From Amphibalanus amphitrite (taxonomy: Eukaryota > Arthropoda > Thecostraca > Balanomorpha > Balanidae): a stretch of 64,000 bases of DNA. Both the position numbers and the translations under genes were made by a program. Under the pieces are notes generated by a model. That model did no database searches. It was not told the origin of the DNA and saw only the letters and a program-made list of their open reading frames with translations. The stretch is taken from assembly GCF_019059575.1 (NCBI RefSeq), contig NW_024881539.1:124001-188000 (forward strand), in the 5' to 3' direction. This document shows positions 1,048 to 56,836 of this stretch, one piece after another; position 1 is the first letter of the stretch, and each line of letters begins with the position of its first letter.

Positions 1048-2214
1048 TTAACCCGCGGCCCACTAGGTCCTGGATTTCCACCCCTTACTGGGGGGGGGGG
1101 GGTGTTTGAACAGCCCCTTCTAACTCGGCTCCTGGGCCACGTAGCGATACGCAGAGGGTGGCGTTCGAAAGACCGCCAAAAATAACGACAAAATCATTTC
1201 AGTCACTTTTTGGTCAGGTGAAATGTCAGGTCACCAGAGGTCATTAAAGACAAGGTTTCGCCGATTCTCAGGTCGAATGTCGACAATTACTAAGAACCCA
1301 ACGCATAACTCGGGAACCAATAGAGCTACATCACCGTGGAAGAGTGCATTCGATAGCCTTATTAACGCTCTTTCTGAGTACTTCCCTCAGATTTGACCTA
1401 GCGTCAACGGTTTTGCCTGCAGGGGGCAAAAACTGAAAGAAATAATTTTTCGGAAGGTGTTTTCCGCAATTACTTCTGACTCAAGCCTTGCTAGAGGTTA
1501 CTTTTACCGGCATCGTGTTCCTCTCGTCGAGACGCATCGAATGAACTATATAAGTTGACCTTGGAAGGTCAACTTGAAAATTTGACCTCAGTGCAAGGTA
1601 GACCTGACTGGAAGGGCCACGTTGCTTATCAGTCGGTCCATATCATCAAGCTGATCACATCTAAGGCATTTTCATCGCTCTAACATGCCTCTATCAAAAG
1701 TTATTCGCGAAAACTGTTAGATACCGATCGTGACCTGATATGACCTCAGGGGCATAAAGAGGGGTCACGGGTACCATTTTCATGTTCAGTATGTCAAAGT
1801 TACTTGTAATTCTGTGTTTGAGAGTGTTGGTAATGGTTTTTGTCCAAAAGGGGCGACTTTCAATTTTCTCCCGTTGACTTTTATAATGGGCAGGTCGCAA
1901 AATTTACCTGAACTTAGGTCACCGATATCGAAATTCCGAGATAAGCATTTTGTACATACTGTTACTCTTATCAGTGGCTGAAAGCTTCAAACCGATTGGT
2001 CACTAGATGTAGCTATGACAGACATTTAAACTTTTTATGAGGTGATGTCACCTGTGACCTGACCTTAAAAGACCTTGGGCTGAAACTTTCCTAGCATGTG
2101 TAGAATTGATGTATGACAAGGTGTGCCAAAAAAGGTGTGCCGCCGTTTTTGAGATATTTGCGAAAAACCGCGGGGGCTCAACCCCCCCCCCCCTCCAGCA
2201 GGGCACGGGTAAAG
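1048..2214. mobile_element. piggyBac-like TTAA non-autonomous element (family A)
   Basis: It starts TTAACCCGCGGCCC at 1048. It ends in a decayed copy of the same end near 2214 (GGGTAAA in place of GGGTTAA). A G-run hairpin lies just inside the left end (1090-1103) and a C-run lies near the right end (2181-2194). The interior is rich in AGGTCA/TGACCT and clearly homologous to the element at 36865-38050, for example the block containing CTCGGCTCCTGGGCCACGTA. No transposase frame is present. The element is older than its relatives, since both ends carry mismatches. Confidence 0.7.
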
Positions 2215-2478
2215 TGTATCGAAATGGTCAATGGTCATAGGTTAAATGACTAATCAGGTGATCAGTGGTCAAATACTAATCGTCTGAAAAGTGTAAAAGT
2301 CAGACTCCATTTGACTCACTTCTGAATGTGACGATGTCGGTAACGGGCTTCCAGGGTCGGTAGGCCTCCGTCGTTACCCGCTCGGTGGTGGGCTGCAGTA
2401 TTTCTGCAATCAAGAGTATATTTTATGCAACCAATTACTGGATCTATCAGATAGCAAACATGTTTGCAGACGTACCTA

Positions 2479-3492
2479 TTAACCCGCGCACCGACGGGGG
2501 TCTGCGCCAACTTCGCACCGACGGGGGGGGGGGGGGGCGGATGACCGCCCCCCCCTGAGATCTCGAGAACGAAGCAAGATAGCGACAAGCGGTAAACGGC
2601 ATCAGATACGCACGGCCAAGATCTACAATTTTTACTAAGGTCATTTTCAGGTCAGGCCAAAGATGACGTCACAGGGGTCGAAAAAGTCAAAATGGCGGCG
2701 CTAGATATGGAGAGAGTTTTTCTCGAATAACTTTCGAATTAGTCAAGATAGGAACAAACTAAGGGCATCATCGTGATCCTCTCGTCAATCCGCATCGAAT
2801 GATATATATGTTGACCTCGAAAGGTCAAGGTCAAAGGTTGACCTCAGGTCACGTGACCTCGAGGTCATCATGTATATCATTCGATGCGTCTTGACGAGCT
2901 GAACACAATGAGACCATCCAAGCGTCTGTATCTTGTTCCTGTACGGAGTTATTGGCCAAAAACCTTTGGTGACCTTTGATGACGTCACATGACCTCACAG
3001 CTGCCCAACAGCAAAACAGACCTCAAGGTAGTGAAGGTTGATCGCATATGAAGTCATGTATGGTATATGGGGCCATTCCGACCCGTTTTAGTGGTAAAAA
3101 CAGGGAGTTGATTTTTCCCCCATTGACTTATAATGGGGAGGTCGCGAAATTGACCTGACCTTAGGTCACCGATATCAAAATTCCGAGATAAACAAATTGT
3201 AGCTACTAATGACCTAATAATATCCTGCGACTTTCAAAGGCCTCCGACATCTACTGTAGCTCTGGCACGGTGACAAATTTGCAAAAAAGTGACTTGAGGT
3301 TGGGTCATTCAAAGTGACCTGGTGACCTGACCTTAAAAGGTAGGAGGTTCAAACTTGCACACCATGTGTAAAGTTGATAAGGTTATAGTCATACCAAATT
3401 TCGCGGCGCTACGCGCCGCGGTTTTCCCGCTATTCGCGAAAAACCTCAGGGGGGGGCGGATATCCGCCCCCCCCCGTCGGTGCGCGGGTTAA
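2479..3492. mobile_element. piggyBac-like TTAA non-autonomous element (family B, type specimen)
   Basis: TTAA flanks both sides (2479-2482 and 3489-3492). The terminal repeat CCCGCGCACCGACGGGGG is perfect at both ends. At the left end the core GCACCGACG recurs 27 bp further in, and the right end has it once. Both ends then form a hairpin of a G-run, a short loop and a C-run (2523-2556 and 3450-3476). The interior carries many AGGTCA half-sites and no open frame of note. TTAA duplication with CCC termini is the hallmark of the piggyBac superfamily. The G-run hairpins are an unusual addition. Confidence 0.85.
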
Positions 3493-3672
3493 TTAAAATC
3501 AGCGTCACAAAATATGCAATTATGTCATTTAAGATATATTTGATGCAACATGACGTCTTTATATTAAGAGACAGTTGTAATTACCTTTAAGCTAACCACG
3601 AAGCCTCAGGGCCCACTTATGCAATCAGACACATTCATTTGCAACAGCAGAAGACATATTGAAATAACCCAC

Positions 3673-3799
3673 CGTTTAGTGTGATAGATCCATCAACTTT
3701 TCCTATGTAGTTTTCGCAGATACACTTATAGGAGCCAAAATCAGACGAATTCAGGTGATGAATCGTCAGCAGCATCTCAGTTTTGTATTCGTAGTGCCT
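3673..3799 (-). CDS. Ig-gene exon 8 (second half of Ig3)
   Basis: The acceptor is ...GGTTTCAG before 3799 and the donor GTGGGT starts at 3672. The exon has 127 nt, enters in phase 0 and leaves in phase 1. It encodes residues 335-376, including D-F-G-S-Y-K-C, the second cysteine motif of Ig3. Reading on past the donor meets a stop after about 12 residues, so a further exon is expected downstream (lower coordinates). Confidence 0.85.
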
Positions 3800-6700
3800 C
3801 TGAAACCCCATTTGCAGTGCGTCAGCTAACAGCAACTGCTGTAACTCGTGATTGCGGACATAAAAGTGCCTAATTGGTCATTTGAGAAGATTTGTTTCAG
3901 AACAATGCCTTTTAAATGGATGAGAAAACTTATATTCTTATGTAACGAGCCTCTTTGAGTTTACCCAAGGGGTAGAGTTTATCAAAAATGAGATCGCATC
4001 ATTCATTCGACCCACCTACTGTACTCGCACAGCAAATGAGCGCCAAGACTAATTCGATAAACGCTTCCACTCCCCAGCGCACATCAATTTTACTTGTGCG
4101 CACATCAAATATTTTATCTTCCATATAAGTTTTAAACACATGTTCCTCTCACGATTTCAATGTCGTATTTTCCCTTCCGCTCGTCGATAATGAGATGCCC
4201 CTCTTTGCCGATCATCTTCCTCCAGTAGACGATTGGCTCCGGGTATGCCTCGCTGCGACATCTCATTGTCACCGATGAGCCCTGGACGCCGTCCATCAGC
4301 TGATTCGGAACCCAGATCATCGGCTTAACTGAAACACAAACCATGGGTAATATCGTAGTTTAAAAAGATAGGCATGTCGTAGACTCGTACGCAAACTTCA
4401 GACCACATTGCCATTTCGGATAAACAGCAAGCACGCACGCTAACCACTGCCTGGCTATGAAAAAATGCCTAGCTTGGTCATCCAAAGAGCGTTTTCGATT
4501 TAAATGAACCATCAATCAATTCCTCTTCTCCCCAAAAAAGATCCGACACCGGCACAACACGGTCTGCCAATGCGCTGCCGCGCTGGAATCCTCCCAATCA
4601 GGAGACCTGCGTAGGTAGACAAGCCCGCCGTACTGCCGAGCCGGCCGGGACAGGCTAACAGCCAGGCATTCTGGCCAAGTGCGGTAACCGAATAGTATTT
4701 GGTTAGGTGTTCGAGCCTCCAAACGCGCAGAATCCGAAAGAAGATGTAATAGAGAAGTAGAGAAGTCGGGGTACTCCCATCAGGTCGAAGATTGTTTCCA
4801 TTTTGTCACGCATTCTGTTTGCTGCCTTTTGCGGGAAGATGATAAACACAACACCTTCCGTGGAAAGTTTTTTTTTACAGAAGACTTTCATCAAGGTAAG
4901 TGTTCCCAACGTTCTCAGTTCCGGATACGTTCATCGCAAATTTGTCCATGGAAAGTTGATAAGTAAAAGGTGTTTGATGCATCTGTCACTGCGTGGTTCT
5001 AATTAGCCGTTTTCGCGACGGGCTATCCGGCGAATGCACCTGATTTGACCAAATCTGCACCTAATTTCTTTTACAGCAAATATCTTCATTTTATGAATTC
5101 ATTTCAGTGTTTTAACCCGCGCCCAGATGGGGTCTGCCGAGCAACGCGGTCTGATGGGGGGGGGGCATTTTGGCCCCCCCCCTCAGATCTCGAGAACCAC
5201 GCAACATAGCGACAAGCGGTAAACGGTGTTGGATAGCCCCAACGGGGAACTACCTTGTGACCCAATTTCATTGACCTCGGTCAAACCGATGACGTCACAG
5301 GTCAGGTCAAAGGTCCAATTTTCACCGTTTACAGGCATTTCAAGAAATGCGTTGTAAAATCGAGTAAAATGCATTTCATTGAAAATCATCGATGGGGAAA
5401 TGTTCTTCAAACACATATTTTGCTATTTGAGGTCACTGATACCAGGTCAGGTCACAGAGGTCAGGTCACTGGGGGGGTCACAATATGAAAGTGTCGTGTG
5501 ACACATGTTTTATGGTCCATTTTACATGACAAATGCGATTATGTGGGTCAGACAGACTTTAGGGCCAGCTTAGGTCACGTTTTGGTCAAGGTCAGGTCAA
5601 GGTCAGGTCAAGGTCAGGTCAAATTAGGTCAAATTTCAAAGTTGATATTTTTGCATAAAATGGGTATCAATTCGATGCAGCTCGTCACGGGGAGTTCAAT
5701 GGTGGTCTCCGTTTTGCGCTACAAGGTCTAGAATTGCTAAAAATTGGGTTCAAAAATTTGACGTCATCAATTTTTAACAGTTTTTTCGCTATAACTTGGC
5801 CAAAAAAAGAGCTATCGATCTAAAATTTGGTATGTATATCGAATAGCGCAGGGACTATCAAATATATTCCGATTTTTTCGAAATTCGAAAATTTTTTGGA
5901 AATTTTTTGAGTTTTTCTAAAAAAATCATTTTTTTTATTTTTTGGGGTCAAAATCCCAAAATTTTGAAAATCCGAGATAGCAGTTTTGTAGCGCCGTCTT
6001 TTCTCTACACAACCACATAAATAACTTTAAAATTGCTTGTTAACTGTAGAATTGGTGAGCGTTTCAAGATGTCATGTTTTTTGCTCATTTTTACTCGAAC
6101 ATGACCTCAGTTTGACCTCAATAACTCCTGACCTGAGGTGACCTGTGACTTGAAATTTTGTGTGAAGGTGTTAAATTGATGCCCGGTAAGGTACCCAAAA
6201 TTTGGCGGCGCTGCGCGCCGCCGTTTTCTCGCTATTTAAGAAAAACCACAGGGGGGGCCAAAATGGCCCCCCCCCATCAGGGCGCGGGTTAATCGATGAT
6301 ATTCTCTGATAATATGACAGAGCAGGCATATAAGCAATTAGTGCAACCCTAGTTGATAGCTGAGAGACACACTGACCCTGATTTGACCAAATCTGCACCT
6401 AATCTGTACCAGATGTGCAGCAAATGTGTACCAGATGGCCGTCGTGAAAACGGCTATTACCTATTCATTCAAAGTAACCAGTTTAATTTGCATCGGCAAG
6501 CTTAAATAACAGTTTTGTTGTTGTTGTAACTGTTGTAACTCAAGAAGGATTTGTATAACAATACACATGCCTTGCGTGATGTATACTCACATTCTACAAA
6601 GAGTTGTATCCGCTTGCTGACAGTGGGTGGAATCTGAAACACATATTGATTGTGGTGATGGTCATGCTTACCTAATATCTTATCACCATGCATTTAAAAT

Positions 6701-12700: not shown

Positions 12701-15700
12701 TGCACGCCTCCTCGTAGCCAACACCCAGATTGCGGCGTTAAAGCTTAATCGCACTGCCTAGCCGCCGCCTTGCCGCTTTCTGGAGACGTGATGTGAATAG
12801 CTCAGCATTTGAGCATCCATCGGGGTGCATACTGTTAAAATGAGCCGATCGAAAGGAAGTGAAGAGAGGAATGGCAGCTCGATGCTGAACGAGACGCCAG
12901 TCACGGCGTCTCCGTGAGCCTCACTGCGTAGTGCGTTATGCCACTAAATGCTTTACAGTTTGGTTTTCGCTAATTGCTGTGAATTATAAAAAGTCGAATT
13001 TGCTTTAACTTAAATTCATTTTTGCTTCTAAATGCACAAAAATCTGAAATTATCGTTTTCTCGGGTCATCGTTGAATATTCCTGCCAAACCCGGCAACAG
13101 AAAAGAGAGCAAAAACATTCTCTTCTTGGAATATAAATTTTGGGGGGCTCTTCGCATCAATAACCGATATGTATTTTATTCTTACAGCACTGTTGTTGAT
13201 AACGATTACAAAAAACCGCAACGTTGCACGCAAGCTCGCTTTCAATAAGACACTTGCACACCAATAATGGGGTCGATATGAACTTAGAATGACTGGTCAT
13301 TGGTATGGTGAATTTGGGTAATATTGGCATCAGGCTACTATGGTTGCTATGGTTACATGGTTGCTATACCATTTCCTGTAGCATTTCCAAACGCCACGCT
13401 CTTCCCTCGAATAGAACAGATAGCATCCCTCTGTGCGTTGACAGGCCGTCCTCCCGTGCCCCGCCACCACGCGTTCGACCGCTTCACTTTCAAATCACGC
13501 CCGTCAAATCTGTAAACTAGTAAACATAAATAAACGGCGGCAGCGGCCGACACGCCTCTAACGTGGTTTCTCTATTCCGGGCCGGAGCCCGCTCGCCATC
13601 TCGAGCGCGGCGATCGCACGCCGAGAGGGTGCGCCGCGAATGCCCACGCGCTAATTTCGCCGCAGTTGGCCGCCAGAATGGCAGCGGGGTGGCGAGCGCG
13701 GCGCGGCGCCAGCTGCCGCGGCAGGCGCAACCGCGCCCCGTTCGGCCCGCCCGCGCCGCGTCTTGCCACCCGGTCGCTCGAAGGGAGGCGATCTGACAGA
13801 TCACAAACTCTTCCCAGCTGCCGAAATTGGCCCCTGAAGCGGAACGAGCCACGTGCCGAAGGGGAGAGGCCGTTATGGGCTCCTCGACGACAGGGAACAG
13901 CCGGAGTTGATACGGGGTTGTGGGAGCGGTGCAGAGACTAAGCAAAATTAGTCATTGACGCCAAGAAAGTGCATTCTGTAGCACTCGTACATATTAACAT
14001 CGGGGAAGAAATATTCAAATGGGTGGCTTTCATGATTAAAGAAATTCAAAAGTAAAACATAATAGGACACTTATGTAACAAATATCAGTCATTATCTCAC
14101 AAAAGCAATAACTCTGCGCAACTCCATTTATTTTATATTAACATTGTCATTGTCTGTCAAGTAAAAATGTATTAACCCTCGCCCGTATGGGGGGTCGAAC
14201 GGACCCTCCTCGGTTTTTCGCGAATAACTCGCGTAAAAAGCGGCCGATCGCGACGAAACTTTCAGTACCCTCGCGTTTATTAATTTTACACCTACCCTGA
14301 AATTTTCATGACCCTGACCCTAATGACCTTTGACCTGTGACCTACTTTTCGAGACCATGTTTGGCCGAAATCGCGATTCGGCGTATGTCTGCTCGCATTA
14401 GCCGCGTGTTTGCAGTCTTTTCGTGGTTTTAAGCGTTCAACTTGAGATATGATGTTGCTCCTATGCATTAGGGTGGGTGTCAAGGTCACCTGAAGGTCAG
14501 GTCAGGTCATTGACCTTTGATGACCTCGGTTCACTTTTTCGAGTTTTACATGTTTCTAGGCTAGTTTTTGGAGCTGAATTCGAATTTAGCAACCATATGA
14601 ACATTTACGAAGTAGTTTTGGCACCTTCGTAACATGTTACGAAGCTGTCAGAGGCGGTTGCCACCTACTATGAATACCCTTACTGGTTGACCTGACCTGA
14701 CCTGACCCGACCTGGCCTATATGCATGAGGACATCATCTGTGATCAAAACTAACATGATATTCGTGATCAGCACCCCAAAAAACCCCATGGAAGCCACGC
14801 TTTACGACTTTCTAACAGGTCCCGATTTTCCCGACTTTTGGGTCATAGACCTGACCTGGAAGGTCAACCGATGACCTAGGACCTTAAAATTGGGTATCAT
14901 CGGCTTCCTCTCGTCACGGGCAACACGCTCGTTTTTTCCGCAAAGCTCTAGCTCGATCAGGGGCGAAACGGCAAGGGGGGCCCCTTATACGTTCGCGGCT
15001 GGAAAAACACTAATACGGGCGAGGGTTAAGAAACCAAATAGAACAGAAGGAAATGACGGGGAACAAGATGTCCTCTGTCACCATCGCTCCATTTAGCTGG
15101 AATATGATGCCTGCTTTGAATTCCATTCAAGTGCGGCAGCTCAATGCAAACGGAGCACTCTCTAAATTCTTAGAGGGCTGCCGACACCACGGATGGCCAC
15201 TCCACTAATAATTCATCGCGCCCTTCTCGCGGATAGAGTGGGCGGCGCCGCTCGCTCTTTTTGACGACCGGGGCATGAGCGAGCCGCAGTCGTCAGCGAG
15301 CCTCTGAATTTCCGGACCGGCGGCGGGAATAAACGAAATGACGGCCGCCGCCGTAGTGTCATCCGACCGTACCTGTTCGGTTTACAGCCGCCGGGTACCG
15401 GGGGCGAGCGGAGGCTGTTCTGTGCCACCCTCCCCCATCCCTTCCCTGCCGCGCTGGACGGAAGCAGACAAATAAAACCACCACCGGCGCGGATCGGCTC
15501 GTCGGCTAATTGTCGGCATTATCACAGGGGAGCTGCGGCCGACGCTAACGAAGACCAACGGGCGCGATTCTGGAGGCTCGCGTGCGCAGCGTCCGCGCGC
15601 TCCCCTTGGAGTCGCGTCCCCTGTCGGAGCTGCGCGCCGCTGACCCGCCGTCCGCCAGCCCGTCCGGCCGCGCTATATGAGCTAATGGTAACGGATCGGG

Positions 15701-21700: not shown

Positions 21701-24700
21701 ATTCCCAGCCGGCTGTGGCAAACGATACTGGCTATGCCGTTAGCAAGTCAATGGGAAATTGCACCCCTGTCGGGAGTGTCTTGAGGCAGTGGTAAATGAA
21801 GGAGAAAAAACACCAAACTCCACACAGTTAATAGTCATGCTAAAAGTAACCCGAAAAATAAAATGCTCAAGTTCCATCAAACAAATTTGTTTTTTGACGC
21901 ACCCTAATGGCGAGGCGATTACGGCTTTTTCACCTTTTTTATTCATTTAACTTAATTCAACTAAGGAGCAGTATACAAAATAATGTGGCTAATAATAGCC
22001 ATTTTCCAGACGGTCATCTGGCACATATTTGTTCATATTTGGTGTGGTATGGTCAAATTAGGTTCATAGTTGATTTTTAGCAGTTCTCAGCTTTGGAAGC
22101 ACTTGTTGCTTATGCCTGGTTATAACTGGTTTATCCAATTGTCAGACGTTATTTCCATTTAAACATTGAAATAGACTTATGATATGAAAGCATTTGTTGT
22201 GAAAGAGATTTGGTTAGACATGGTCATCTTTGGTGCATTCGCCAGATAAACCATCGTGAAATGTTCCAATATGTTTAACATTTACCAATGGATTTCCGGT
22301 GGAAGCTACCCGTAGTCATTAAGTGTTGACCGTGAACAAAACCATCACATTTCCCTGAACCACGGATCACATAAGGTGATCACATCATCACATCAGGCAC
22401 GGACATGGGTGTCGATTTCCGCCGGTTTGGGGTGCCCGAGCTCTCCGAATTCCCCGCCGGCCCGGCCGGCTTGGCTTTGGAGCCCCAGCAGACGGCGCAG
22501 GTCAAGGTCACCGCTAGGGCGGCGGTGGATTTGCTACGCCCGGGCACCCCCAACTCGGCGTAAATCGACACCAATGGGCACGGATCACATTAGGTGATCC
22601 GTGCCTGAACCATCCGGGGCTTCCCCAGCGCTGTGTTACGACATACCAAGTAAAAGCTTACTCGCGCTGTGAAAACTGTTAAGATCAAAGCCGATCGCTT
22701 ATTAATTAGTATACTTCTATGGATCGTTTCCACTTGCTACCCATGCTAACAGCCTTGGGGCCTGCACTCCACAGCCGTCAATGATGGCACCAATATGTCC
22801 TGTATCGCAGCGCTGTATATAAAACTCTCCCGGCTTTCAGCATGTGACGGGCTCATTCATAAATCAAAAGTCCCGAAGCCCGAAGCTGCGGCGGGTGCAT
22901 TGTTCAACCGGCAGAGGGAGTGATTAATTTCCTGGTGAGTCATTATGTATAAGACGCTAAACGAAGCGCTCTGTCACGGCAAAGCTGCCGCGCCTCCCGG
23001 CAATAATGATGGCTATTTCGTGGTATTAGAACATAGCCGTGGGACCCGAGGGCTGGCCGACAATACGCTTTTTAACGTCAGAGAATATTCTTCTCAGAGT
23101 GTGAACACTGGTGCGAGGAGGATGTTTTAACCATGTTGAAACCGTGCATAAGTTGAAAGTCTTTTAGTATAAGCTGCATCATTTTTGTAATAAAAAAACT
23201 TTGTTTATCGACAGAGAAAGCACACAACAAGACGGCAAATCATGGTCTTATTTAATTAAATCGCTTCAAAAACTCCATTGAGACAAGGCTGCGAGTGTCA
23301 GGCGGAGGAGTATCATCAAGGGCATTAGGTACACCTGCCGCTGATAATGGACAAGATTAATATTATCGAGGACATGTTTGCATCGTGGCGTAAGTAAATA
23401 ACGTAAGCCCGTAAGTAAACTTCACGTGATATACCACACGTAAATGATGAGTGCATACAATTACGCAAAACGTAAAAGTCAGCATACACCCGATCATTCA
23501 AAAACGGACATTTATGGATGCAGTGTGAATTTAACCCTCGCCGGCACAGGGGGGCGGGGCGGTTGATGCAACCCGTTAAGGTTTTTCGCGAATAACTCGC
23601 GTAAAAACCGGCCGATTGCAACGAAACTTTCATTACTTTCGCATTGATCAATTTTACACCTACCCTGAAAATTTAATAGCCCTGGCCTAAATGACCTTTG
23701 ACCTGTAACCTCTTTTCCGAGACCATGTTTGGCCGGAATCGCGATTCGGCGTATGTCGGCTCGCATCAGCCGCGCGTTTGCAAGCTTTTCGTGGTTTCAA
23801 ACGTTCAAACATGTGATTAAATGTTGCTCCCAAGCATTAGGGTGGGTGTCAAGGTCACCTGAAGGTCAGGTCAGGTTATTGACCTTTGGTGACCTCGGTT
23901 CACTTTTTCGAGTTTTACATGTTTCTAGGCTAGTTTTTGGAGCTGACTTCGAATTTAGCAACCATTTGAACATTTACGAAGTAGTTTTGGTGCCTTCGTA
24001 ACATGTTACGAAGCTGTCAGAGGCGGTTGACACCTACTACGAATACTCGGCAGGACGCGCTACTGGTTGACCTGACCTGACCTGACCCGACCTGGCCTAA
24101 ATGCATGAATGCATCATCTGTGATCAACACTAACATGATATTCGTGATCAGCACCCCGAAAAAAACCATAGCAGCCACACTTTATGACGTTCTAGCAGGT
24201 CCCGATTTTCCCGACTTTTGGGTCATTGACTGACATGGAAGGTCAACCTTCCTCTCAGGTCCTCAGGTCTCAGGTCAGGTCATTGGCTTCTTCTCGTCAC
24301 GGGCAACACGCTCGTTTTTTCCACGAAGCTATAGCTCGATCAGGGGCGAAACGGCAAGGGGGGGGGCAACGGATCCCTCAACCCTTATACGTTCGCGCTA
24401 GCTCGATCAAGGGCCAACGCGAGGGGGTACGGGTCGCACCAGCCCCTTTGTGCCGTCGAAGGACGCAAAATGGCTTGTGCCGGCGAGGGCTAACTTTGTA
24501 AGGCATTTTACCGTTGTTTGATCTGATCCAATCTATTGTCACCTACGCTTCTTTATTAAGCCAAACTCAATGAAGCTATGATTTCAGTGACAGTATTGTT
24601 ATTTAAATGATGGCAGTTGAATAACATACAATCAGGTTATGCTCACGATTGTCTGGCAAACGATGACTTGAGTCATGCAATTCAGCAATTAGTAAGAAAA

Positions 24701-27700
24701 ATGAGTTAGGGTGTCACCGAGACAAAACGTGTTCAAATAATTGAGACATTTGTTACAACGAAATGATAAAAAGGCATCATTCGCGGCACAACGATCAGCT
24801 TTACGGTGCTCTATAGGATTTTTTTTTTTGGGGGGGGGGGGTGAACTGCGTCAGCATACATTAATTTAAAAAATCATCAAAGCAGTATATACTGTCATCT
24901 GTCTATCAACTGTCGTGCATGTCTTAACATACCCCTGGCTCTCGTATACTGCTGAAAGTGTTGATTTCAGAGCCGATGGGTATGAGACATATGACTCCTC
25001 AACTAGGTGTACGAGTTAACATGTTGGCGCCCTCATTGTTTGATTGATAAATGGCAGCGCCAGTCCAGTATGTGTAAATATTGACCGTTAACCAGGTCAT
25101 GGGCAAAATATTTGTGCTGAGTTATCTATGAACCGTGCGGAATGTCCCCCGCGACCCCTCACCCACGCTCTCTTTGGAGTCGTTGCGATTCAATGTCTTA
25201 TGTGACCCTATTAGTGGCAGGCTCCTGGCTACCCCATATTAGTGGCAGGGGGGCTGTTTACGACCCCCCCTTGATATCTCGAGATCTAACCGGCCGATTT
25301 TCAAAATTCAAACGACATTCGATTTGGCTCAACGAGATCTACATTTCTAAAAAAAAATTAAAAAATGTCAATAGGGGGGTAGAGGGGGTAAAAACGGGCA
25401 AATTGCAGATACATTTTAGACTGTTTATCACGGCCAGGTTTCTGAACCAATCTTAACGCAACTTTTGCCGATCGATAGAGAATGAACCAGGAATTCACAT
25501 GGATCCTAAAAATATGCATTTTCAAAAATCATAGGCGGATACAGATCATTGAGATTGGGGGTACACAAAAAGTATAGTAAATAAGGTTTTTGTTGGTACT
25601 GTTTCTAAAAAGGGTGGCAATGGTCTTGTTATGTTACAATTTTCTTATGAGAGAACGACTAAAATTGTATTGGTCATGCATAGGCGGTGTCAGGGCACCT
25701 ATGTTGGGAGGTAAAAAATAACCCCCCTTTTTGGACGCCTGGATCCGCCTATTATAGCAAAAACGTGTCAAAAGAGGATGCACAATAACTTTGTATATGT
25801 TATCACATGATACCTTTCATTCACTGTTCGTAAAACTGGTGCAGCATCGTGATCTTCGCCCAAATGACTCGCTTCACGAATAGGACCCCCCAATTCCCAG
25901 TGCTCTGGAGCCGCCCCTGGTAAAGTTATGAACTTGAAATTTTCAGGGAATGTGCCCAATTTAGTTTTAGGAAAAGTCAGAAAATTTCAGCATCGTAGCT
26001 TCAGTGGTTTCGGAGATATTCCCGAAAAACCTGAGGGGTGGATAAAAACAACCCCCCCCTGCCACTAATAGGGTTAAGCCAATTCTCCAAATCAGGGAAA
26101 TTGACATCAACAGTCGACATCAGGCAGACTGTCGCTGAGCTACGGAGCTACGCTGTGCAATGTGCATGGCCCCCCATCGTGACACACTGTGGGGTGGACG
26201 CTGCTGTCCGGTCACATGCCATCTCTGCCGACGGGACACTACATAGTTAGACCCTGCTGCTCGCGGGACACCTTGCCTCTCAGCAAGTACAGGTCTCGCG
26301 GGTTGTAACGGTAGGTTTTGCACATAGAAAATTTAGTGTACTTCAGGCTATATCTTCGTCGTCTTAAGCTTTTAAGTGTTGAAGATGCAATCGACTTGTT
26401 GGTTCACAAGCCGGCCAGGATTGTGTAAAATGGCTTCATCGTAGATCGATTAGTTACTGAGATATAACCGGAAATGTAAAAGTGCAAAACCTACCGCTTA
26501 ATCTCGCGAGAGCCGTGCACTAGCAGCAAGTAAGCTGCGCAAGTAGCCCAACACCATACCAGACCCATGTCGCTCGTCATGCCACTATCTCTTAGTCTTG
26601 CGCTTGGAATTTCAGCCTCAGCTCGTTTCGTGAGGCACTAGCGCCCTTGTGCTTGCGGGACATTAGCCTCTGCTACCCAAGACACCGGCCGCTTCCTCCT
26701 TGAACACTAACCCTTTCTGCCCGCAGAACAGCAGTCCCTGCCACCCACAACACTAGTTCCTCTGAACACTGGTTCCTCTGGACACTGGTTCCTGTTTGCG
26801 GGGCATAAACCAGCCCATTTACGAGGGACAAAAAACCCTTCTGCCCGTGAAACCAGGCCATTCTGCCCATGGGACATCAGCCCCTGCGAGCAGGACACCA
26901 GCCCCTGTGCGCTGGTTTCAAGCCCCAGAAACTCTTCCCTCGAGGCCCCGTCCCCGGCATGGGCTTCTCGTCACGGACACGCTTGACAAACGGCCGAAAA
27001 TCGACACAGCCGGCGACCGTTTTCAATTTAGAGTGTCTCCGACCAAATCCCGAACAGACAACCGATATATGATGGGCAGGAGGTGTCCCCACAAACTAAA
27101 GAAATGAAGTTCTGGTGTCGAAATGAAACCAAGCGCACGAGTTACACAGTACACACCCGCGTTTCATCCCAACCGACCCAACCACCATTCATGACAAATA
27201 TGACACCCATGAGCACATCTTACTCATAGAAGTATGCGCATTTGATCACGAAGAATGGCATGGCATTTGCATATTTTGTCAAATTGATTTCGTAAAAGAT
27301 TTATAGAAATACTGGTGATGTTTGTAGCATATTTAAAGGTAAATTAATCCCGCTTTGCTGGTGAACAGCGCAGTTTCTTTTCATTGCAAAGGAGGAGAAA
27401 AAAGAGATGGTCAACACGTAACATCAGGTGGTGGCCCGTCCTCACGTTGCAAAATGTCATCGCCATTCCGCTGATTGTTCGCGGTATATGATAACACACA
27501 TGTGGGCCTTCAGATAAAGGAGGAGAATGAGGACTACACGCGCCAACGGTTGTAAACGCTAATGCCTTAGCCATTCGAAGGTAGAGCTCCACAGAATAAT
27601 GCCTAGAGACTCCGGTTATGCTACAAAAAGTGAAGGAAGTAACGCTCCATAACACGAACTTTTAAGCAATTTGAACAGTTCTTAACGATATGCAAGGCTT

Positions 27701-33600: not shown

Positions 33601-35600
33601 AGAATAAAGGCCATTTTGTTTTGCTCAGGTCAGCACTGAGATCAATAGAGGTCAGCAAAGGTCAAATTTTTCCAACTTCAATATTTTGACGAATCGGCAT
33701 ACAGCACGCGAACAACAAAAGCCACAGGGCACAGGGTCTCAATGAAGCGCATTCGATAGCACTATAAAGCTTTTTCGCTGGCATGTTTGGATTTGAACTC
33801 CGATCAACGCTTTGGTATGGCTTTGGTCTCCAAAGGGCAAAACCCGTCAAGATTCAAGATAAACGGATTTTGCGGAAATGGCTTTGCTGCAAGAACGTTA
33901 AAATCAACCAATACATAGCGTAAGTGTTAAAGCCATCGTGTTTCTCTCGTCACGACGCGACGAATGAACTACCTTTAATTAATCTGACCTTCTTACTCCC
34001 CTCCGACTGGGGCTGGAGTAGGTGGGTGAAGCTGACAGCCCCCTGAAGGCTTTCTCACAACTGCTCGGTACCTTTGAAGATATAGAGCTTAAACGACCTA
34101 TCAAACGCCGTTCGCCGTTTGTCGCTGCGATGTGTAGTTTTTGAGATCTGAAGGGGGGGGGGGGCGAATCGGCCCCCCCGCCAGTTTCTTGTCCCGGCGG
34201 AGCCCGCCAGAAATAGGGTTAATTAAAGATCTACAACTTTTACAAAAACATTTTCAGGTCAGGTCAATATTGAGGTCACCAAAGGTCATCAACGATAAAA
34301 TGTTGTGGAATTAGTTACCTATATAACTTTTAAACTAAGAAACATAGAGACATAAAACCAATACATTTTTTTTTTGTTGCTCTCGCCGAGGCGATGCGAA
34401 ATAAGTATGTGATGACCTTCACAGGTCAATTTGAAATTTGACCTGAGGTCAAGGTCAGGTCATTCATCAATGAGGTTGTGGGGTATGGTCATGCTGCATA
34501 CCAAACGACGCGCCTTGACCAGGCGAGCAGGCCAGTTTGGTACCACTTACAAGTCTTTAGCACCATCATGTCGTGATTTATTGACAGAAAAACGATTTAT
34601 GACGTCACATGACCTCAGATGACCTTTGCCGGTGCCCCTGTCAATTAGCGGCACCAGGATCATCACCGATGAGATAATCTTCCATAATACTGAAAGAATT
34701 GGGTGGTTTTGACTCGTTTACACGAAGCAGGAGGCGTTTCAATATTTTCCCATAGGCTTGCAATGTAAAGGTCACGAATCTGGCCTGACCTCAGGTCACA
34801 GATATGAAAATTCTGAGATATACAAATTGCACATACTGGTACCCTAACTAAAGCCTGAAGAGAAGAAATTGATCGGTCAAAAACTCTAGCTCTGGCGTGA
34901 TTGCAAACTTTTCTGAGGTAGGGTCACCAAACCGCCTCTGGTGACCTGACCTGAGGTCAGATCAACTCAAAATTTTCAAAATGTTGCGTAAAAGCCTTTT
35001 AGGAAAAGTCAGAAAATTTGAGCTTCCTAGCTCAAAGCGTTTGGGAGAAATAACCAAAAAACCTCAGGGGGGGGGGCTCCTGAGGCCCCCCCCCCCCCGC
35101 CAGGAATAGGGTTAATGATAGTCAGCTAGCAGGTCGGAAAAGCCTCGAATGGACTCAGCCTGCTGTATGGAAGAAGAATAAATGATGAGATTTGACTTCC
35201 TTCAACCCATGTTGTGACCTGAGTTGACCTGAGTGGATGTGACCTATCCTTGACCTCAACTTTCTCAGCTTAAAGCTATATCATTCGAGGCTCCTGTGCA
35301 TGCCGAACAAGATGGTGCAAAAAATCGAATCTCTGCGACAGTTTTTTAGTGAAGTCATTTACAAAAAAATGAGTCCGTACCTTTGGGCACTTGACCTGAT
35401 CTCAGTGGTCATCGGATGGCTTAAGACCCTAAAATCGGGTACCCTCCGCTGCTTCTCGTAATGGCCCACACATTCGTTTTTTCCGCGAGGCTCCAGCTCA
35501 ATTAGGAGCGAAACGGCAAAGAAGGTCGTACCCCACCCCTCTCGACCGAGGCGAAAAAAGATAGGTCCGACGGATGAGTAACCCGGTCCATTCTCTCTCC
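33601..35600. mobile_element. Rearranged cluster of piggyBac-like fragments
   Basis: Parts of several TTAA elements are joined here. 33601-33990 resembles the family A interior. A duplicated-type end points right and closes with GGGTTAA at 34213-34222. A single-type end (CCTGGCGG... G-run/C-run ... GCCAGGAATAGGGTTAA) closes at 35116. Family D-like interior follows to about 35590. Hairpins of G- and C-runs lie at 34154-34190 and 35068-35099. The first end appears inverted relative to its interior. Confidence 0.6.
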
Positions 35601-36759: not shown

Positions 36760-38446
36760 TTAAAGGGACTATCCCACCTTCTAAAATGTTGTTGAAACCA
36801 GTTAAATTGTGCCCGACTTTATAGATTGGATGACCAGGAACACGGTTCTGGCATTTATTTTTCATTAACCCGCGCCGGGCCGGTGCTCTGAGATTCCGCG
36901 CCGGGCCGGGGGGGGGGGGGTGTCTGAACACCCCCCCTTCTAACTCGGCTCCTGGGCCACGTAGCGACACGCGGTAAGCGGCAATCAAAAGAACGTCCAA
37001 AATAAGGACGAAAACACTTCGGTCATTTTTTGGGTCAGGTCAAAGGTCAGGTCACCAGAGGTCACCAAAGGTAAAATGTTGACTATTTCAACATTTTGGA
37101 AACTGCCAACGGCTATCTCGGGAACCGATAGAGCTACAGCGCCACGGAAAAGCGCATTCGATAGCACTTTTACAGGCCTTTCTGAGTAATGTTCTCAGAT
37201 TTGACCTCAGGTCAACGGTTTAGCCTCCAGAGGACAAAAACTCCAAAAATAGCCGTTTTTACGAAAATCGGTTTTTCGGCGATAACTTTTGACTCAAAAG
37301 AGCCATGACATTACTTTTGCCAGCATCGTGTTCCTCTCGTCGAGACGCGTCGAATGAACTATAAGTTGACCTTGAAAGGTCAACTTGAAAATTTGACCTC
37401 AGGTCAAGGTCATGACCTGACCGGAAAAGGTCATGTTGCATGTCAGTCGATCCGCAACGTCGAGCCGAACACATCTAAGGCGTTTTCAGCGCTCTAGGAC
37501 GCCTCTATCAGAAGTTATTAGCGAAAAACTGTTAAATTCTGTTCGTGACCTGAGATGACCTCGGGGACATAACGAGGGGTCACAGTTGCCATTTTCTGGT
37601 TCAGTGTGTCAATTTTACCTACATCTCGATGTTTGAGAGTGTCTAGAATGGCGTTCGTGCAAAACAGACGCTTTTCAATTTTCTCCCATTGACTTATAAT
37701 GGAGAGGCCGCAAAATTGACCTGACCTTAGGTCACCGATATCAAAATTCCGAGATATGCATTTTATAGATACTGTTGCTCTAATCAATCGCTGAAAGTTT
37801 CAAGGCAATCGATCAATCGGTGTAGCTATGACGAGCATTCTTATTTTTTCTGAGGTGAGGTCACTTGGCGTGACCTGGTGACCTGACCTAAGGCGACCTG
37901 GGTCTGAAATTTTCACAACATGTGCGGAAAAGATGTACGAACAGGTGTGCCAAAAACGGCGGTGCTCCGCGCCGCCGTTTTTGAGATATCTGCAAAAAAA
38001 CGCAGGGGGGGGGTGTTCAAACACCCCCCCCCCGGCCCGGCGCGGGTTAAACATCTTAGGCTTCCCATATTCCAAACACAAACTTTCAAATATGTGACGT
38101 CACAGCCCAAAATTACCTCCTTCCCCAGGCCACATTACTGTCATAAAGTTGATTCTTTTTACTCTGTAGGCACCACAACAAAGTTCAGACCAAGTTTTAA
38201 GCGATTTTTCAACGAACAAACCCATTTAAATCAGAATGACTAAACGAGGTGACGTCACACTAACGGTCGCTCCATGTTGAAGATAGGGCCTTGCGCAAGG
38301 CCCATTTTCAAATGAAGGGAACGAATTTCTTCAACACCAAGAGGCCGCGGGGGTTGCAACCTAGATAGATAGTGGTTTCTGAACCTCGCCGCAAACTTGG
38401 CTATCTCAACTCAAACCCCATGTTAAAGGTGGGATAGTCCCTTTAA
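36760..38446. mobile_element. TTAA-flanked T2/Kolobok-like MITE, second level of the nest
   Basis: The ends are TTAAAGGGACTATCCCACCTT and its complement, AAGGTGGGATAGTCCCTTTAA. TTAA lies at 36760-36763 and 38443-38446. Without the inner insert it is about 500 bp, matching 49609-50105. TTAA duplication with AGGG termini resembles T2-type MITEs attributed to the Kolobok superfamily. That attribution is from memory. Confidence 0.75.
36865..38050. mobile_element. piggyBac-like TTAA element (family J), innermost of the nest
   Basis: TTAA lies at 36865-36868 and 38047-38050. The terminal repeat is CCCGCGCCGGGCCGG, present twice (26 bp apart) at the left end and once at the right. G-run/C-run hairpins lie at 36910-36938 and 38005-38033. 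The interior is homologous to 1048-2214 and dense in AGGTCA. Confidence 0.87.
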
Positions 38447-46028: not shown

Positions 46029-46119
46029 CCTATAAAAATCAGCATGAATGGCCCAGCTAGGCTCAGCCCGACCTATAACGTTTTTAAAAGGTTTTTATAT
46101 CAGCAACCACTGCAACTGG

Positions 46120-47590
46120 GCTGATACACTATCAGAGGCCGGTGTGGGACTTTTAGAGGTCGGTCTGGGCCATCAGAGGCCAGTTTAACCCTCGACAGCC
46201 CGGACCTATAGGTTTTCTACATACGCGCCGGCCGAGGGGGCGGGGGGCGGTACGACCCCCTCGCCGTTTCGCCCCAGGTGGAGCTAGCGCGTCGCGGAAA
46301 AACGAGCGTGTGCGCCGTTACAAGACGCAGAGATCGATACCCGATTTTAAGGTCCTAGGTCAACCGGTGATCTCTGAGGTCAGGTCAAGTGCCTCCAGGC
46401 ACGGTTCCGTTTTTGGTGAATAACTTCGCAAAAAACGGCCGCAGAGCCGCGATTTTGCCAGCATCGTGTTCGCCTCTCTCAGGCGCGTCGAATGATATAC
46501 TTTTTGTTTGGGTGAGGTAAACTGAGGGTGTTGACCTCGGGTCATGGTCAGGTCAGCGCCCCCAGGTCACGAAATTGGTCGTAGGAGGTCATGTCGCATA
46601 TCATTCGATTCGGCAGGTCTTCCTGAGTCTATTGATGGCTTTCCCGACTCGCTAGCTCAATTTGATCGGTAGTTATTGACGACAAACCAATATGACCCTT
46701 ATAACTTCATAAATGACGTCGCGCAAGGTCAACATTGCAAAAGTGACGCATCGAACTTTGCAAGGAGTGCATGAAATCACGATTCGGTGTGCTTGAGATA
46801 GTTGGAGATCGTTTCCGGCGCCAGAAAAAGTTTTCAGTTTATCCCCATTGACTTATACCTAGTGGTGAGGTCACGAAAATGACCTGACATATGACCTTTA
46901 GGAAAAATCCGAGATGTACAAGTTGTGAGACTCCTAATGGATACTAGGTCCTCCAAGGTTCATTTCCCTGTGAAATCTCCTCTGGCAGTGAGGACTTTGC
47001 GAAGTTGCGACATCTGAAGACCGTGCAGAGGTTCACTTATGACCTCATGGGTCAGGTCAGTGACCTGATCTGACCCGAAAATACGGTTGGTGTCAAAAGA
47101 TCCGGCGGCTTGATTCAAAGGTCAGGTATGCAAAGCTTCAGCTCTCTATCGCCGGCGTGTTCGGAGCTATCGCGAAAAAAAAAACTATGGAGGGGCGGCA
47201 CCCCCCCCCCCCATCGGCCGGCGAGGGTTAAGGCCCTCAGAGACCAGTACAGGGCCTGCAAAGGGCAGGATGAGACCTTTAGATGCCGACTTGGGCCATC
47301 AGAGGCTAATGTGGGTCCTTACAGGCCAGCATGGGCCCTCAGAGGTCAGTGTGGGACCCTAAAATGCCGGCATGGGCCGGTGTTGGACCCCAGGCCAGCA
47401 GAAGGCCCTCAAAAACCAAGATGGGCCTCAGAGGCCAGCATCGGGTCTTCAGAATCCAGTGCAAGGCCCTCAGAGGCTAATGCGGGTCCTTACAGGCCAG
47501 CATGGCCCCTTAGAGGTCAGTGTGAGGCCGTAACAGACCGGCATGGGCGGGACCTGGAACCTAGAGACCAGCGGTGGGCCACGTGCGTGA
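46120..47590 (+). repeat. ~20-bp GGGCCCTCAGAGGCCAGTGT minisatellite, split by a TTAA element
   Basis: Degenerate units of GGCCCTCAGAGGCCAGTGTG occur at 46120-46184 and resume at 47232-47590. The element at 46185-47231 separates the two parts. The 177-codon frame through 47110-47643 follows the repeat and is not a gene. Confidence 0.75.
46185..47231. mobile_element. piggyBac-like TTAA non-autonomous element (family K)
   Basis: TTAA lies at 46185-46188 and 47228-47231, with termini CCCTCGACAG and CCCTCGCCGGCCGATGGGG. The repeat core GCGCCGGCCGAGGGG recurs inside the left end. The interior is homologous to 55614-56836 and carries AGGTCA copies. It inserted in a minisatellite. Confidence 0.83.
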
Positions 47591-48262: not shown

Positions 48263-49154
48263 TTAACCCTCGCATGTGTGCGGCGTTTGCCAGCTTCTAA
48301 TGTGTAGGGGGGGGGTCGGTTGGACCCCCCCCTTGCCGTTTGGCCCCTGATCGAGCTAGAGCTTCGCGGAAAAAACGAGCGTGTTGCCCGTGACGAGAGG
48401 AAGCCGATGATACCCAATTTTAAGGTCCTAGGTCATTGGTTGACCTTCCAGGTCAGGTCAATGACCCAAAGTCGGGAAAATCGGGACCTATTAGAAAGTC
48501 GTAAAGTGTGGCTGCTAAGGGGTTTTTCGGGGTGTTGATCACGAATATGGTGTTAGTTTTGATCACAGATGTCTTTAAGCATTTAGACCAAGTCGGGTCA
48601 GGTCAGGTCAGGTCAACCAGTAGGGGTTGTGACGGGTATTCGTAGTACGTGTCAACCGCCTCTGACAGCTTCGTAACATGTTACGAAGGCACCAAAACTA
48701 CTTCGGTAATGTTCAAATGGTTGCTAAATTCGAATTCAGCTCCAAAAACTAGCCTAGAAACATGTAAAACACGAAAAAGTGAACCGAGGTCACCCGAGGT
48801 CACCAAAGGTCAATGACCTGACCTGACTTTCAGGTGACCTTGACACCCACCCTAATGCATGGGAGCAACATCAAATCACATGTTTGAACGTTTGAAACCA
48901 CGAAAAGCTTGCAAACGCGCGGCTAATGCGAGCCGACATACGCGGAATCGCGATTCCGGCCAAACATGGTTTCGGAAAAGAGGTCACAGGTCAAAGGTCA
49001 TTTGGGTCAGGGTCATGAAATTTTTAGGGTGGGTGTAAAATTGATCAATGCGAGGTTACTGAAAGTTTCGTCGCGATCGGCCGCTTTTTACGCGAGTTAT
49101 TCGCGAAAAACCATGGGGGGTCCATCCGACCCCCCCTACACATGCGAGGGTAAA
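48263..49154. mobile_element. piggyBac-like TTAA non-autonomous element (family L) inside the satellite
   Basis: The left edge is TTAACCCTCGCATGTGTGCG and the right edge is CACATGCGAGGGTAAA (TTAA with one change). ATGTGT recurs 26 bp into the left end only. Hairpins of G- and C-runs lie at 48307-48333 and 49115-49136. The interior is an inverted relative of 14172-15029. The palindrome CTTCGTAACATGTTACGAAG lies at 48669-48688. Confidence 0.87.
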
Positions 49155-52338: not shown

Positions 52339-53261
52339 TTAACCCTCGCATGTGTGCGGCGTTTGCCAGCGTCTACAGCGTCTAGCGTGTAGGGGGGGGG
52401 GTCGGTTGGACACCCCCCCCCTTCTGCTGTTCGGCCCCTGATTATTGAGCTAGAGCCTCGCGGAAAAAAACGAGCGTGCTGCCCGTGACGAGAGGAAGCC
52501 GATAATGCCTAATTTTAAGGACCTAGGTCATTGGTTGACCTTTCAGGTCAGGTCAATGACCCAAAAGTCAGGAAAATCTGGACCTGCTAGAACTTCGTAA
52601 AGGGAAGCTGTTATGTTTTTTTTTCGGGGCGCTGATCACGAATTTCATGTTAGTTTTGATCACAGATGATGTCTTCATGCATTTAGGCAAGGTCGGGTCA
52701 GGTCAGGTCAGGCAGACCAGTAGGCGTCCTGCCGGCTATCCATAGTAGGTGTCAACTACCACTAACAGCGTCGTAACATTTTACGAAGGTACTAAAACTA
52801 CTTCGTAAATGTTCAAACGAAGGCTAAATTCGATATCATCCTGAAAACTACCCTAGAAGCATTTAAAACTCGGAAAAATGACCCGAGGTCATCAAAGGTC
52901 AATGACCTGACCTGACCTTCAGGTGACCATGACACCCACCGTAATGCGTGGGACGAACATCATTTCACATGTTTGGATGTTTAAAATCACAAAAAAAAAG
53001 ACCGGAAACGCGCGGATAATGTGAGCTGACCTACGCTGAATCACGATTCCGGCCAAACATGGTCTCGAGAAATAGGTCACAGGTCACAGGTCATTTGGGT
53101 CAGGGTCATGGAATTTTCAGAGAAGGTTAGAATTGATCAACTCGGGGGTACTGAAAGTTTCGTTGCGATCGGCCGCGTTTTGCGCGAGTTATTTGGGAAA
53201 AACCATTGGGGGGGGGAAGGTTCCATCCGACCCCCCCCCCCTATACACCTGCGAGGGTTAG
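52339..53261. mobile_element. piggyBac-like TTAA non-autonomous element (family L/M)
   Basis: The left edge is TTAACCCTCGCATGTGTGCG. The right edge is CACCTGCGAGGGTTAG (TTAA mutated). It has a duplicated-type left end and G-run/C-run hairpins at 52392-52425 and 53210-53242. The interior matches 48263-49154 in the same orientation, with the central palindrome eroded. Confidence 0.83.
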
Positions 53262-53416
53262 CCCTCGCCGGACCGTTGGACACCATCTGGCGGCCGATGC
53301 GCCTTCCACATTATTGAGTTCAGTGATTCAAACGGTGTCACGGTGCAGCCGACATTTACTGCTAGTCATGGTTACTGGTAGCCGACACTTACTGGTACTC
53401 AACGGGGCGCGGGTTA
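53262..53416. mobile_element. Fragment with mixed piggyBac-like ends
   Basis: It starts CCCTCGCCGGACC and ends GGCGCGGGTTAA, so the two ends belong to different TTAA families. It directly abuts the preceding element. Probably a deletion product or recombinant. Confidence 0.5.
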
Positions 53417-54905: not shown

Positions 54906-55029
54906 AAAATATTGCTGTTCTTTCCTGGCTGATTTCATTCCTGAGGTAAGCAATGAAATTTGTAGCATGATTTCATTTTGTGTTTTTATTGAATTCCTTA
55001 AAAGCTCGCCTAAAAGCATTCTCTCTCAT

Positions 55030-55440
55030 TCAGGCTCTCATCAACCCGGCAGGCGGTGGACCTCCCGGCCACCTTCCGCGCGGTGGGGGGGGGCATTTTT
55101 TTGCCCCCCTCCCGTATCTCCGAAACTACTGGACGGATCCGTAACATTCAAACGATGTTCGATAGCCCTGTCAAATTTGTCGATGGAACTCCAATTTCAT
55201 TGACCTCGGGGTCACCGATGACGTCACAGGTCAGGTCAAAGATAAAATGTTTCGCGTACGTTAAAAATAGGGCGTACGTTGCCTAGTATATATGTTGCTA
55301 TTAGAGGTCACTGATAATACCATGTCAGGTCACAGGTTAGGTCACCAAGGGTCAGCACATGAACCAACTTTACTATTTACTAGGGTTGTGCGATGCATGT
55401 TTTATGGCCCCCCTGACATGGTCCCCCCCAAAAAAAGGTT
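55030..55440. mobile_element. Truncated piggyBac-like end (family G)
   Basis: GGCAGGCGGTGG, a G-run/C-run hairpin (55084-55110) and the following ~300 bp match the right part of 29399-30602 in inverse orientation. The other end is missing. Confidence 0.7.
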
Positions 55441-55613
55441 ACAGGTCTAAGGTCATTTGGGTCAGGTTCATGGAATTTTCAGGGTAGGTTCCTTGAGATT
55501 TGGTCAAGTTTGGCGCTTTCGGTCAACCGTCGTGAAAACGGCTGTTCTGAACCTTTCTGAGCACGGTGCAAGCTCAAATATACATATGTTGCATGTTCCC
55601 ATTCAATGACACA

Positions 55614-56836
55614 TTAACCCTCGCCGGACCTATTGGTTTTCTACATACGCGCCGTATGTAGACGATTTCGTACGATATGTAGATCTTTGGTACGATTTCC
55701 CTCGCCGTTTCGCCCCTGATGAAGCTAGAGCGTCGCGGAAAAAACAAGCGTGTGCGCCGTTACAAGACGCAGGTACTGGTGCCCGATTTTAAGGTCTCAT
55801 GAGGTCAGGTCAAGTGACCAAGGGCCAGGGTTCAGTTTTTCATAACTTCGCAAAAAAAAAACGGTCGGAGAGCCGCGATTTTGGCATCATCGTGTTCGCC
55901 TCGCTCAGGCACGTTGAATGGTATACTTTTTGTTCGGGTGAGGTCAACTTGAGGTGTTGACCTCGGGTCAAGGGCAGGTCAGCTCCCCCAGATCACGAAG
56001 CTGGTTGACAGAGGTCATGTTACATATTACTCGAATCGGCAGGTCTTCCTGAGTTTATTGGTGGCTTTCCCGACTCGCTAACTCAATTTGATGGGGAGTT
56101 ATTGATGAAAAACTCTAATGACCCAAATATATAACTGCAATGAAAACCGTAAGCCTCATGCTAATAATTATATTAAAAATAGGGCCAAGAAAATAAGACA
56201 TGCTGGGCAAACTGACAAACTGACTTTTGTCAAACCGTCTTACGGTTTTCATTGCAGTTATATATGTAATCATGAGCCTCAAAACCGCGCTTTCTTTAAT
56301 CAATGACCCAAGTGACCATAAATGACGCCACGCAATGTCAACAATGCAAAAGTGAAGCATCGGACCTTGCAAGGCGTGCAAGAAATCACGATTCCATGTG
56401 CTGGAGACAGTTTGAGATAGTTCTCGGCGCTAACATAGCAGTTTTCATTTTTCCCCATTGACTTATACCTAATGGTGAGATCACGTGGCCGACCTGACCT
56501 CATGTGATTTTTAGGGAAAATCCGAGATATATGTACAAGTTGTGAGACCTCTGGATGATACTACATCCTGTAAGTTTCATCTCCCTGTGAAAGTTCCTCT
56601 GGCACTGACGGCGTTGCGAAGTTGCGACATCTGAGGACTGTGCAGAGGTTCACATATGACGTCACAGGTCAGTGACCTGACCTGAAAATGCGGTTGGTGT
56701 CACAAGATGCGACTTGGATCAAAGGTCAGCTATGCCAAGTTTCAGCTCTCTATCGCCTGCGTGTTCGGAGCTATCGTGAAAAACCCTATAGGGAGGCGGC
56801 ACCCGCCCCCCCCCCCCGTCCGACGGCGAGGGTTAA
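55614..56836. mobile_element. piggyBac-like TTAA non-autonomous element (family K/N)
   Basis: TTAA lies at 55614-55617 and 56833-56836, with ends CCCTCGCCGGACC and CCCTCGCCGTCGGACGGGG. The interior is homologous to 46185-47231 throughout, except for the small insertion at 56127-56301. Confidence 0.83.
56127..56301. mobile_element. 175-bp insertion with foldback and 10-bp direct repeats
   Basis: AATGACCCAA flanks it at 56117-56126 and 56302-56311. The first 140 bp form a foldback with arms TATAACTGCAATGAAAACCG and its complement. A 35-bp tail follows the second arm. The related element at 46185-47231 lacks the insert. Confidence 0.7.

Follow-up and report, generated by a model that had tools for sequence, protein, structure and literature searches.

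The window analysed here is a 64,000-nucleotide stretch of the Amphibalanus amphitrite genome (G000:C42:124001-188000), and it holds a group of short elements with two unlike ends, one (S) with a single copy of a recognition motif and the other (D) with two. These lopsided piggyBac ends look like a design that has been kept while the recognised sequences changed, because ends throughout the genome (807.6 Mb in 2644 contigs) share one layout and because three larger relatives carry a piggyBac-type gene. We conclude, at a probability of roughly 0.9, that these elements are the non-autonomous relatives of a piggyBac lineage that has diversified, in which the layout has stayed fixed while motif and palindrome core changed and in which the extra D site would dock a second transposase dimer, so that S and D ends synapse best with each other.

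Paired S and D ends

Both ends could be placed for 12 window elements of 0.86-1.2 kb, which by our boundaries cover 12,535 of the 64,000 bases. All 12 pair an S end with a D end (S+S and D+D, none), and orphan ends lie at 33600, 34222 and 35115. The window contains 22 copies of the string TTAACCC, where 9.3 would be expected by chance; the matches at 33121 and 53411 were excluded, as they are not of this end type. TTAA flanks most of the ends and is mutated at four. The features are listed below, the strand of an element being its S-to-D orientation.

1048..2216, minus strand: element; D end 1048, S end near 2213 with mutated TTAA, inner repeat unclear
2479..3492, minus strand: element; D end 2479, repeat CACCGACGGG, offset 27; S end 3492; TTAA at both ends
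2523..2555, no strand: G-run/core/C-run palindrome at the D end of the 2479 element, core CGGATGACCG
3449..3475, no strand: G-run/core/C-run palindrome at the S end of the 2479..3492 element, core CGGATATCCG
5112..6292, minus strand: element; offset 27, family with many close copies
14172..15029, plus strand: element; S end 14172; D end 15029, repeat CGTAT, offset 26
23531..24494, plus strand: element; S end 23531; D end near 24491 with mutated TTAA, repeat CGGCACAA, offset 27; motif that of the C778 element described below
25203..26077, minus strand: element; D end near 25203 with mutated TTAA, repeat TTAGTGGCAGG, offset 28; S end 26077
29399..30601, plus strand: element; S end 29399, reading TTAACCTTCCAGGCGGT; D end near 30599, layout as in the others
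34203..34222, minus strand: orphan D end, repeat CTGGCGGG, offset 26; partner end not found
35067..35115, minus strand: orphan S end with palindrome; partner end not found
36865..38050, minus strand: element; D end 36865, repeat GCCGGGCCGG, offset 26; S end 38050
46185..47231, minus strand: element; D end 46185, where this copy has a degenerate repeat; S end 47231
48263..49154, minus strand: element; D end 48263, repeat ATGTGT, offset 26; S end 49154 (TTTA)
52339..53261, minus strand: element of the 48263 family; D spacer expanded
55614..56836, minus strand: element; D end 55614, offset 28 (7/10), lacking a G run in this copy; S end 56836

The best motif repeat falls at 26-28 bp in 10 of the 13 D ends in the window, with one tied with another offset. 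The offset is 27 at 2479, 5112, 24491 (read on the minus strand, the right end of the 23531 element) and 30599 (minus strand; 8/10, with a G-run match at 36 scoring equally), 26 at 15029 (minus strand, the right end of the 14172 element), 34222 (minus strand), 36865 and 48263, and 28 at 25203 and 55614. Six such offsets of 26-28 bp had been claimed in an earlier note on this DNA; all six were reproduced on recomputation, and the same offset is present at 5112, 29399 and 34222, outside those six. The note had also called attention to how the repeats differ between elements, which they do, mainly from about bp 8 to 14; they are not wholly unrelated, however, since many share CCC[G/T]CGC.

The same geometry was sought in the whole genome with a pattern that starts with TTAACCC and a variable number of free bases, continues with one non-G base and six or more G, and ends, after 2-30 further bases, in six or more C; the reversed pattern served as control. 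With 4-16 free bases (S ends), there were 36,914 matches (18,438 + 18,476) against 2 (1 + 1) in the control, and with 30-48 (D ends), 43,901 (21,922 + 21,979) against 8 (3 + 5). The classes of 17-29 and 50-78 free bases gave 450 (227 + 223; control 8, 5 + 3) and 482 (240 + 242; control 2, 0 + 2); the four classes together cover every gap from 4 to 78 free bases except 49. The ends fall into two sharp geometric classes, and many of the approximately 100 matches listed for each rare class reflect an interrupted G run, a small rearrangement or two elements that abut.

Sequence statistics were taken on the 100 S and 100 D matches listed, all from contig C1, which contain 27 and 32 motif strings, respectively. 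With one sequence per string, the outer and inner motifs of the D ends agree best at offset 27, with an identity of 0.66; elsewhere between offsets 14 and 39 it stays at 0.21-0.35. The best offset is 26-28 in 28 of the 32 strings. Counted copy by copy, the best offset is 27 in 61 D ends, 28 in 18, 26 in 15, a tie including 27 in four, 25 in one and 18 in one. The modal gap from TTAACCC to the G run is 10 in S ends (65/100) and 37 in D ends (56/100), a difference of 27. As a separate observation, two D ends (G000:C23:1622027-1622122 and G000:C79:71156-71260) carry three copies of the repeat unit, that is, one more step of about 27 bp.

Transposases and target site

A PF13843 profile search of the genome returned 116 matches. 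Three larger elements (4-6.6 kb) with ends of the S and D types carry piggyBac transposases:

C527 element: S end 290214, D end 294184, 3971 bp; intact 646-residue frame from ATG
C778 element (L036): D end 130624, S end near 137203, where TTAA is mutated to CTAA; transposase frame with one stop
C33 element (L045): D end 447032, S end 451754, 4723 bp; frame without stops

A second copy of the C527 element lies on the contig of the window (C42), with 99% identity and a frame that is cut by an insert and ends early; two further loci, C257 and C431, score the same as C33. In all three elements, the D offset is 27, the S end is on the 5' side of the gene and the D end on its 3' side, and the core is preceded by G and followed by C at both ends. 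The transposases lie between the ends, are of the DDD, DDE_Tnp_1_7 type and keep the three catalytic aspartate positions. The C527 protein matches PF13843 with an E value of 2e-69; against Trichoplusia ni piggyBac (6x67), E values are 2e-78 (C527) and 1e-56 (C33), and against piggyBat (9c0f), 3e-30 and 4e-21. In a midpoint-rooted tree of 17 proteins, with T. ni piggyBac and piggyBat as partial stretches and several ordinary proteins as incomplete frames, the C527, C778 and C33 proteins cluster together (99) and then with T. ni piggyBac (100), with piggyBat and 12 ordinary piggyBacs of the genome outside this cluster. As judged from the residues, all three have a predicted cysteine-rich domain (CRD) with the Cys/His order of T. 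ni (C-x2-C ... C-x2-C-x4-C-x2-H ... C-x2-C), and 21-23 residues separate its second and third cysteines compared to 11 in T. ni.

TTAA target sites are not unique to piggyBac, Kolobok and Sola3 being other TTAA-targeting superfamilies, and it could be argued that the window elements belong to one of these and merely resemble piggyBac. This is contradicted by the piggyBac transposases in three larger elements with such ends, and we consider it most improbable. The conserved design with a fast-changing recognition sequence that the earlier note had proposed is supported, as the second copy and its spacing persist genome-wide and the partner transposases found are piggyBac-like. The terminal bases are CCCT in C527, C778 and several families and CCCG in many families and at the C33 D end; the C33 S end has CCTT. 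The termini of piggyBac elements are generally CC[C/T]T, according to the parts of the coral study drawn on here (PMC2872659).

The ends of the short elements are most likely bound by a T. ni-type piggyBac transposase encoded by the rarer 4-6.6 kb elements. Among the window families, the link to a transposase covers the 23531 family, which has the motif of C778 and resembles it at the S end (88.9% over 198 bp) and at the D end (79.8% over 109 bp). A short element (C527:289270-290217) matches the C527 transposase element at both ends (90.8-93.5% over 294-782 bp). It also abuts that element, S end to S end with a shared TTAA (L054, 4271-5218, the larger element starting at 5215).

Duplication of TTAA is observed at one locus, via a paralogous empty site. 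C778 carries a nested 923-bp element that is flanked by TTAA on both sides (L056:587-590 and L036:38-41), and the same host sequence in the 48263 element of the window has a single TTAA at 48420-48423. The 5112 family is 98-100% identical over the D-end region in the 40 copies scored of 1425 candidates; four full copies compared are 96.0-97.5% identical and have unrelated flanks.

The palindrome and known piggyBac ends

A run-core-run structure could be parsed in 99 of the 100 S and 98 of the 100 D ends listed. The cores tend to be palindromic, with 312 of 433 half-positions pairing in S and 256 of 426 in D compared to about 25% expected for random bases, and are specific to families (TGTTTGAACA, TAAATTTTA, CGGATATCCG, CCTCAGGAG and others), although TGTTTGAACA is common to two different motifs. 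The median palindrome centre is at bp 28 in S ends (23-39) and bp 57 in D ends (50.5-63). The palindrome, inward of the motif, lies near the place expected from the T. ni CRD site. The earlier note had regarded poly-G hairpins as foreign to standard piggyBacs and perhaps new. Because they sit close to where T. ni has the palindrome that binds the CRD dimer, we suggest that the hairpin is more likely a known part in a G/C-run version, probably a G/C-flanked form of that site rather than a wholly new part. Our literature search, by title and the start of the abstract, found no description of G/C-run palindromes at piggyBac ends; most subscription papers and the transposon-family databases were outside the search.

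It is conceivable that slippage around a short palindrome produced the G and C runs and that transposase binding does not depend on them, so that only the family-specific core matters. Run length does vary widely, the S palindrome centre ranges from 23 to 39, and the T. ni palindrome is not known to have such runs. However, the runs are present at both ends of all three transposase elements and across the 27 S and 32 D motif strings (the latter by selection of the patterns), and the longer CRD stretch is a candidate for the loop with which the piggyBat CRD is described as reading its palindrome in the portion of that work used here (PMC11707139). We regard slippage as possible but somewhat doubtful, and favour a role for the runs as part of the CRD site.

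The layout of T. ni piggyBac, as given in the sections of the structural study drawn on here (PMC7351741), is closely similar. The stretch from bp 34 to 63 of the right end nearly repeats bp 7-35 of the left end, shifted by 27 bp. The contacts of the DNA-binding domain fall within bp 7-16, and the palindrome at bp 17-33 is occupied by a dimer of the CRD. The native enzyme excises and integrates with a left and a right end, does neither with two left ends and only excises with two right ends. Lengthening the right end by 5 bp cuts activity by about half, and an extra binding site raises integration about two-fold. The authors of the structure were puzzled by the duplication at the right end and suggested that there is a second, inner dimer. 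The barnacle-genome elements thus share with T. ni piggyBac, on the same partial account, a TTAA target, a left end with a single motif and palindrome, a right end in which motif and palindrome are repeated by a 27-bp step, and a DDD transposase with a C-terminal CRD; they differ in having 32 motif strings among the 100 D ends listed in place of one recognition sequence, and in the longer stretch between the first two cysteine pairs of the CRD.

An S end (the left type) consists of TTAA, CCC, the recognition motif and a palindrome centred at about bp 28. In a D end (the right type), an outer copy of the motif comes first, and motif and palindrome follow 27 bp deeper than in S, with the palindrome at about bp 57. 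By analogy, we propose that the motif (bp 7-16 in T. ni) is bound by the dimerisation and DNA-binding domain and the palindrome by a CRD dimer. The extra D site may dock a second, non-catalytic dimer, which would make the S+D pair the one that synapses best. The layout is held fixed as the motif and the core of the palindrome change. That natural ends numbering in the tens of thousands, with many recognition sequences, keep the same 27-bp step is strong independent evidence that the spacing is functional.

Other systems are less similar. Where the papers drawn on here compare ends, it is between T. ni piggyBac and piggyBat (Myotis lucifugus), and the two differ. piggyBat belongs to the same superfamily, has asymmetric ends of motif and palindrome and forms a tetramer with a non-catalytic inner dimer, but the parts of the two studies used here place its left-end motifs at bp 11, 55 and 99 (a 44-bp step) and describe a right end without such a palindrome (PMC11707139, PMC13405395). 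The CMITEs of corals are TTAA miniature inverted-repeat transposable elements (MITEs) linked to piggyBac, with internal regions more conserved between families than their terminal inverted repeats and with tandem arrays; unlike here, a duplicated inner repeat, a G/C palindrome or a fixed 27-bp step is not mentioned in the parts of that paper drawn on (PMC2872659).

Several observations weigh against our reading. Three of the 13 window D ends lack the 26-28 offset: 1048 (best 25, 6/10), 46185 (best 40, 6/10, a degenerate copy) and 52339 (best 37, 6/10, an expanded spacer). The listed D and S samples come from the one contig, C1, and related ends without G and C runs, such as the 55614 D end, are uncounted because the patterns demand such runs. 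The palindrome centre is 3-5 bp deeper than expected from T. ni (28 and 57 compared to about 25 and 52) and shifts with G-run length. The transposase is tied to three families only. The piggyBat end layout, in the part of its description used here, differs (PMC11707139), and the design is therefore not general to the superfamily. Finally, 27 is among the two best offsets in none of 14 ordinary piggyBac ends (7 elements) of this genome, the second best at L013a being 26 at 5/10.

Motif turnover and the ordinary piggyBacs

Global alignment of element bodies with cheap gaps gives about 0.70-0.81 for most pairs, and for this reason only pairs of at least 0.82 were taken as closely related. The bodies of the 14172, 23531 and 48263 elements are 90-93% identical in a gap-tolerant alignment, and their motifs differ at all three sites. 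The six-base motifs at S, outer D and inner D differ together, at 8, 10 and 15 of 18 positions in the three pairs, compared to 7-10% in the bodies. The binomial P values of 1e-5, 2e-6 and 2e-14 (for the S site alone, 0.006, 0.016 and 2e-5) are only a rough guide, because the families were picked for differing and the sites are taken as independent. Within each family, the S, outer D and inner D copies of the motif agree.

This agreement bears on whether one permissive transposase mobilises all families, with the motif differences being neutral drift. The families do share TTAACCC, by selection of the pattern, many continue with CGC, and the authors of the coral MITE study discuss cross-mobilisation in the part of the paper used here (PMC2872659). 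Against this stand the motif copies, which agree within a family and differ together between families at 8, 10 and 15 of 18 bases, and the three transposases, which are 38-62% identical to each other and carry different motifs. We judge a single permissive enzyme to be unlikely. Faster divergence of the DNA-binding parts than of the catalytic part gave no clear signal when C527 was compared with C778 (core parts 0.61-0.66, CRD 0.54) and with C33 (core parts 0.35-0.43, CRD 0.46), the domain borders being approximate.

A stronger alternative is that motifs turn over by recombination or gene conversion that swaps whole ends and not by stepwise co-evolution with transposase specificity. The near-identical bodies with different motifs fit this, as do nested or abutting elements at L028, C527 and C778. 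However, two coordinated exchanges would be needed for each switch, because the S and D ends are about 1 kb apart and differ in layout. We put end swapping at a little short of an even chance. With similar reserve, we suggest a natural radiation of parallel piggyBac lineages on one unchanged chassis (27-bp step, S+D pairing), in which both the palindrome core and the motif (about bp 8-14) switch and non-autonomous bodies may gain new ends between lineages, giving orthogonal transposase/end pairs. Such natural pairs are offered as material for learning how piggyBac specificity changes.

The ordinary piggyBacs of the genome were considered as partners and rejected: 26 of the first 30 loci (L009-L038) have a TTAACCC end, each with at least one ordinary end (TTAACCCATTAGTGCC and similar). 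Hairpin-type ends are present alongside ordinary ones in L022 and L028. A TTAACCC end was not found in L012, L020, L034 and L036, the last of which (C778) later proved to be a partner; among ten further loci (L044-L053), L046 is a partner and L045 (C33) proved to be one once flanks were added. A guessed end, TTAACCCTTTGC, gave 12 + 17 matches against 31 + 31 in the control, that is, no enrichment. Three ordinary piggyBacs (L009, L035 and L051) have at one end a palindrome centred at bp 24.5, close to the T. ni CRD-site position, which was reached in 0/100, 0/100 and 16/100 shuffles, respectively. In L028, an ordinary piggyBac with TTAACCCATTAGTGCCC ends and a 604-residue open frame (667-3347) is inserted in a hairpin element (7-3825), and several loci share its PF13843 score.

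Two minor features of the window were also noted. Tandem repeats of about 20 bp at 40123-40201, which read TTAACCG... on the minus strand, are not of the element type. The pentamers GGTCA/TGACC occur at 17.4 per kb inside the 12 elements and 3.7 per kb outside them, and are also dense within portions of the loci that surround the C527 and C42 transposases (L046, L054 and L055).

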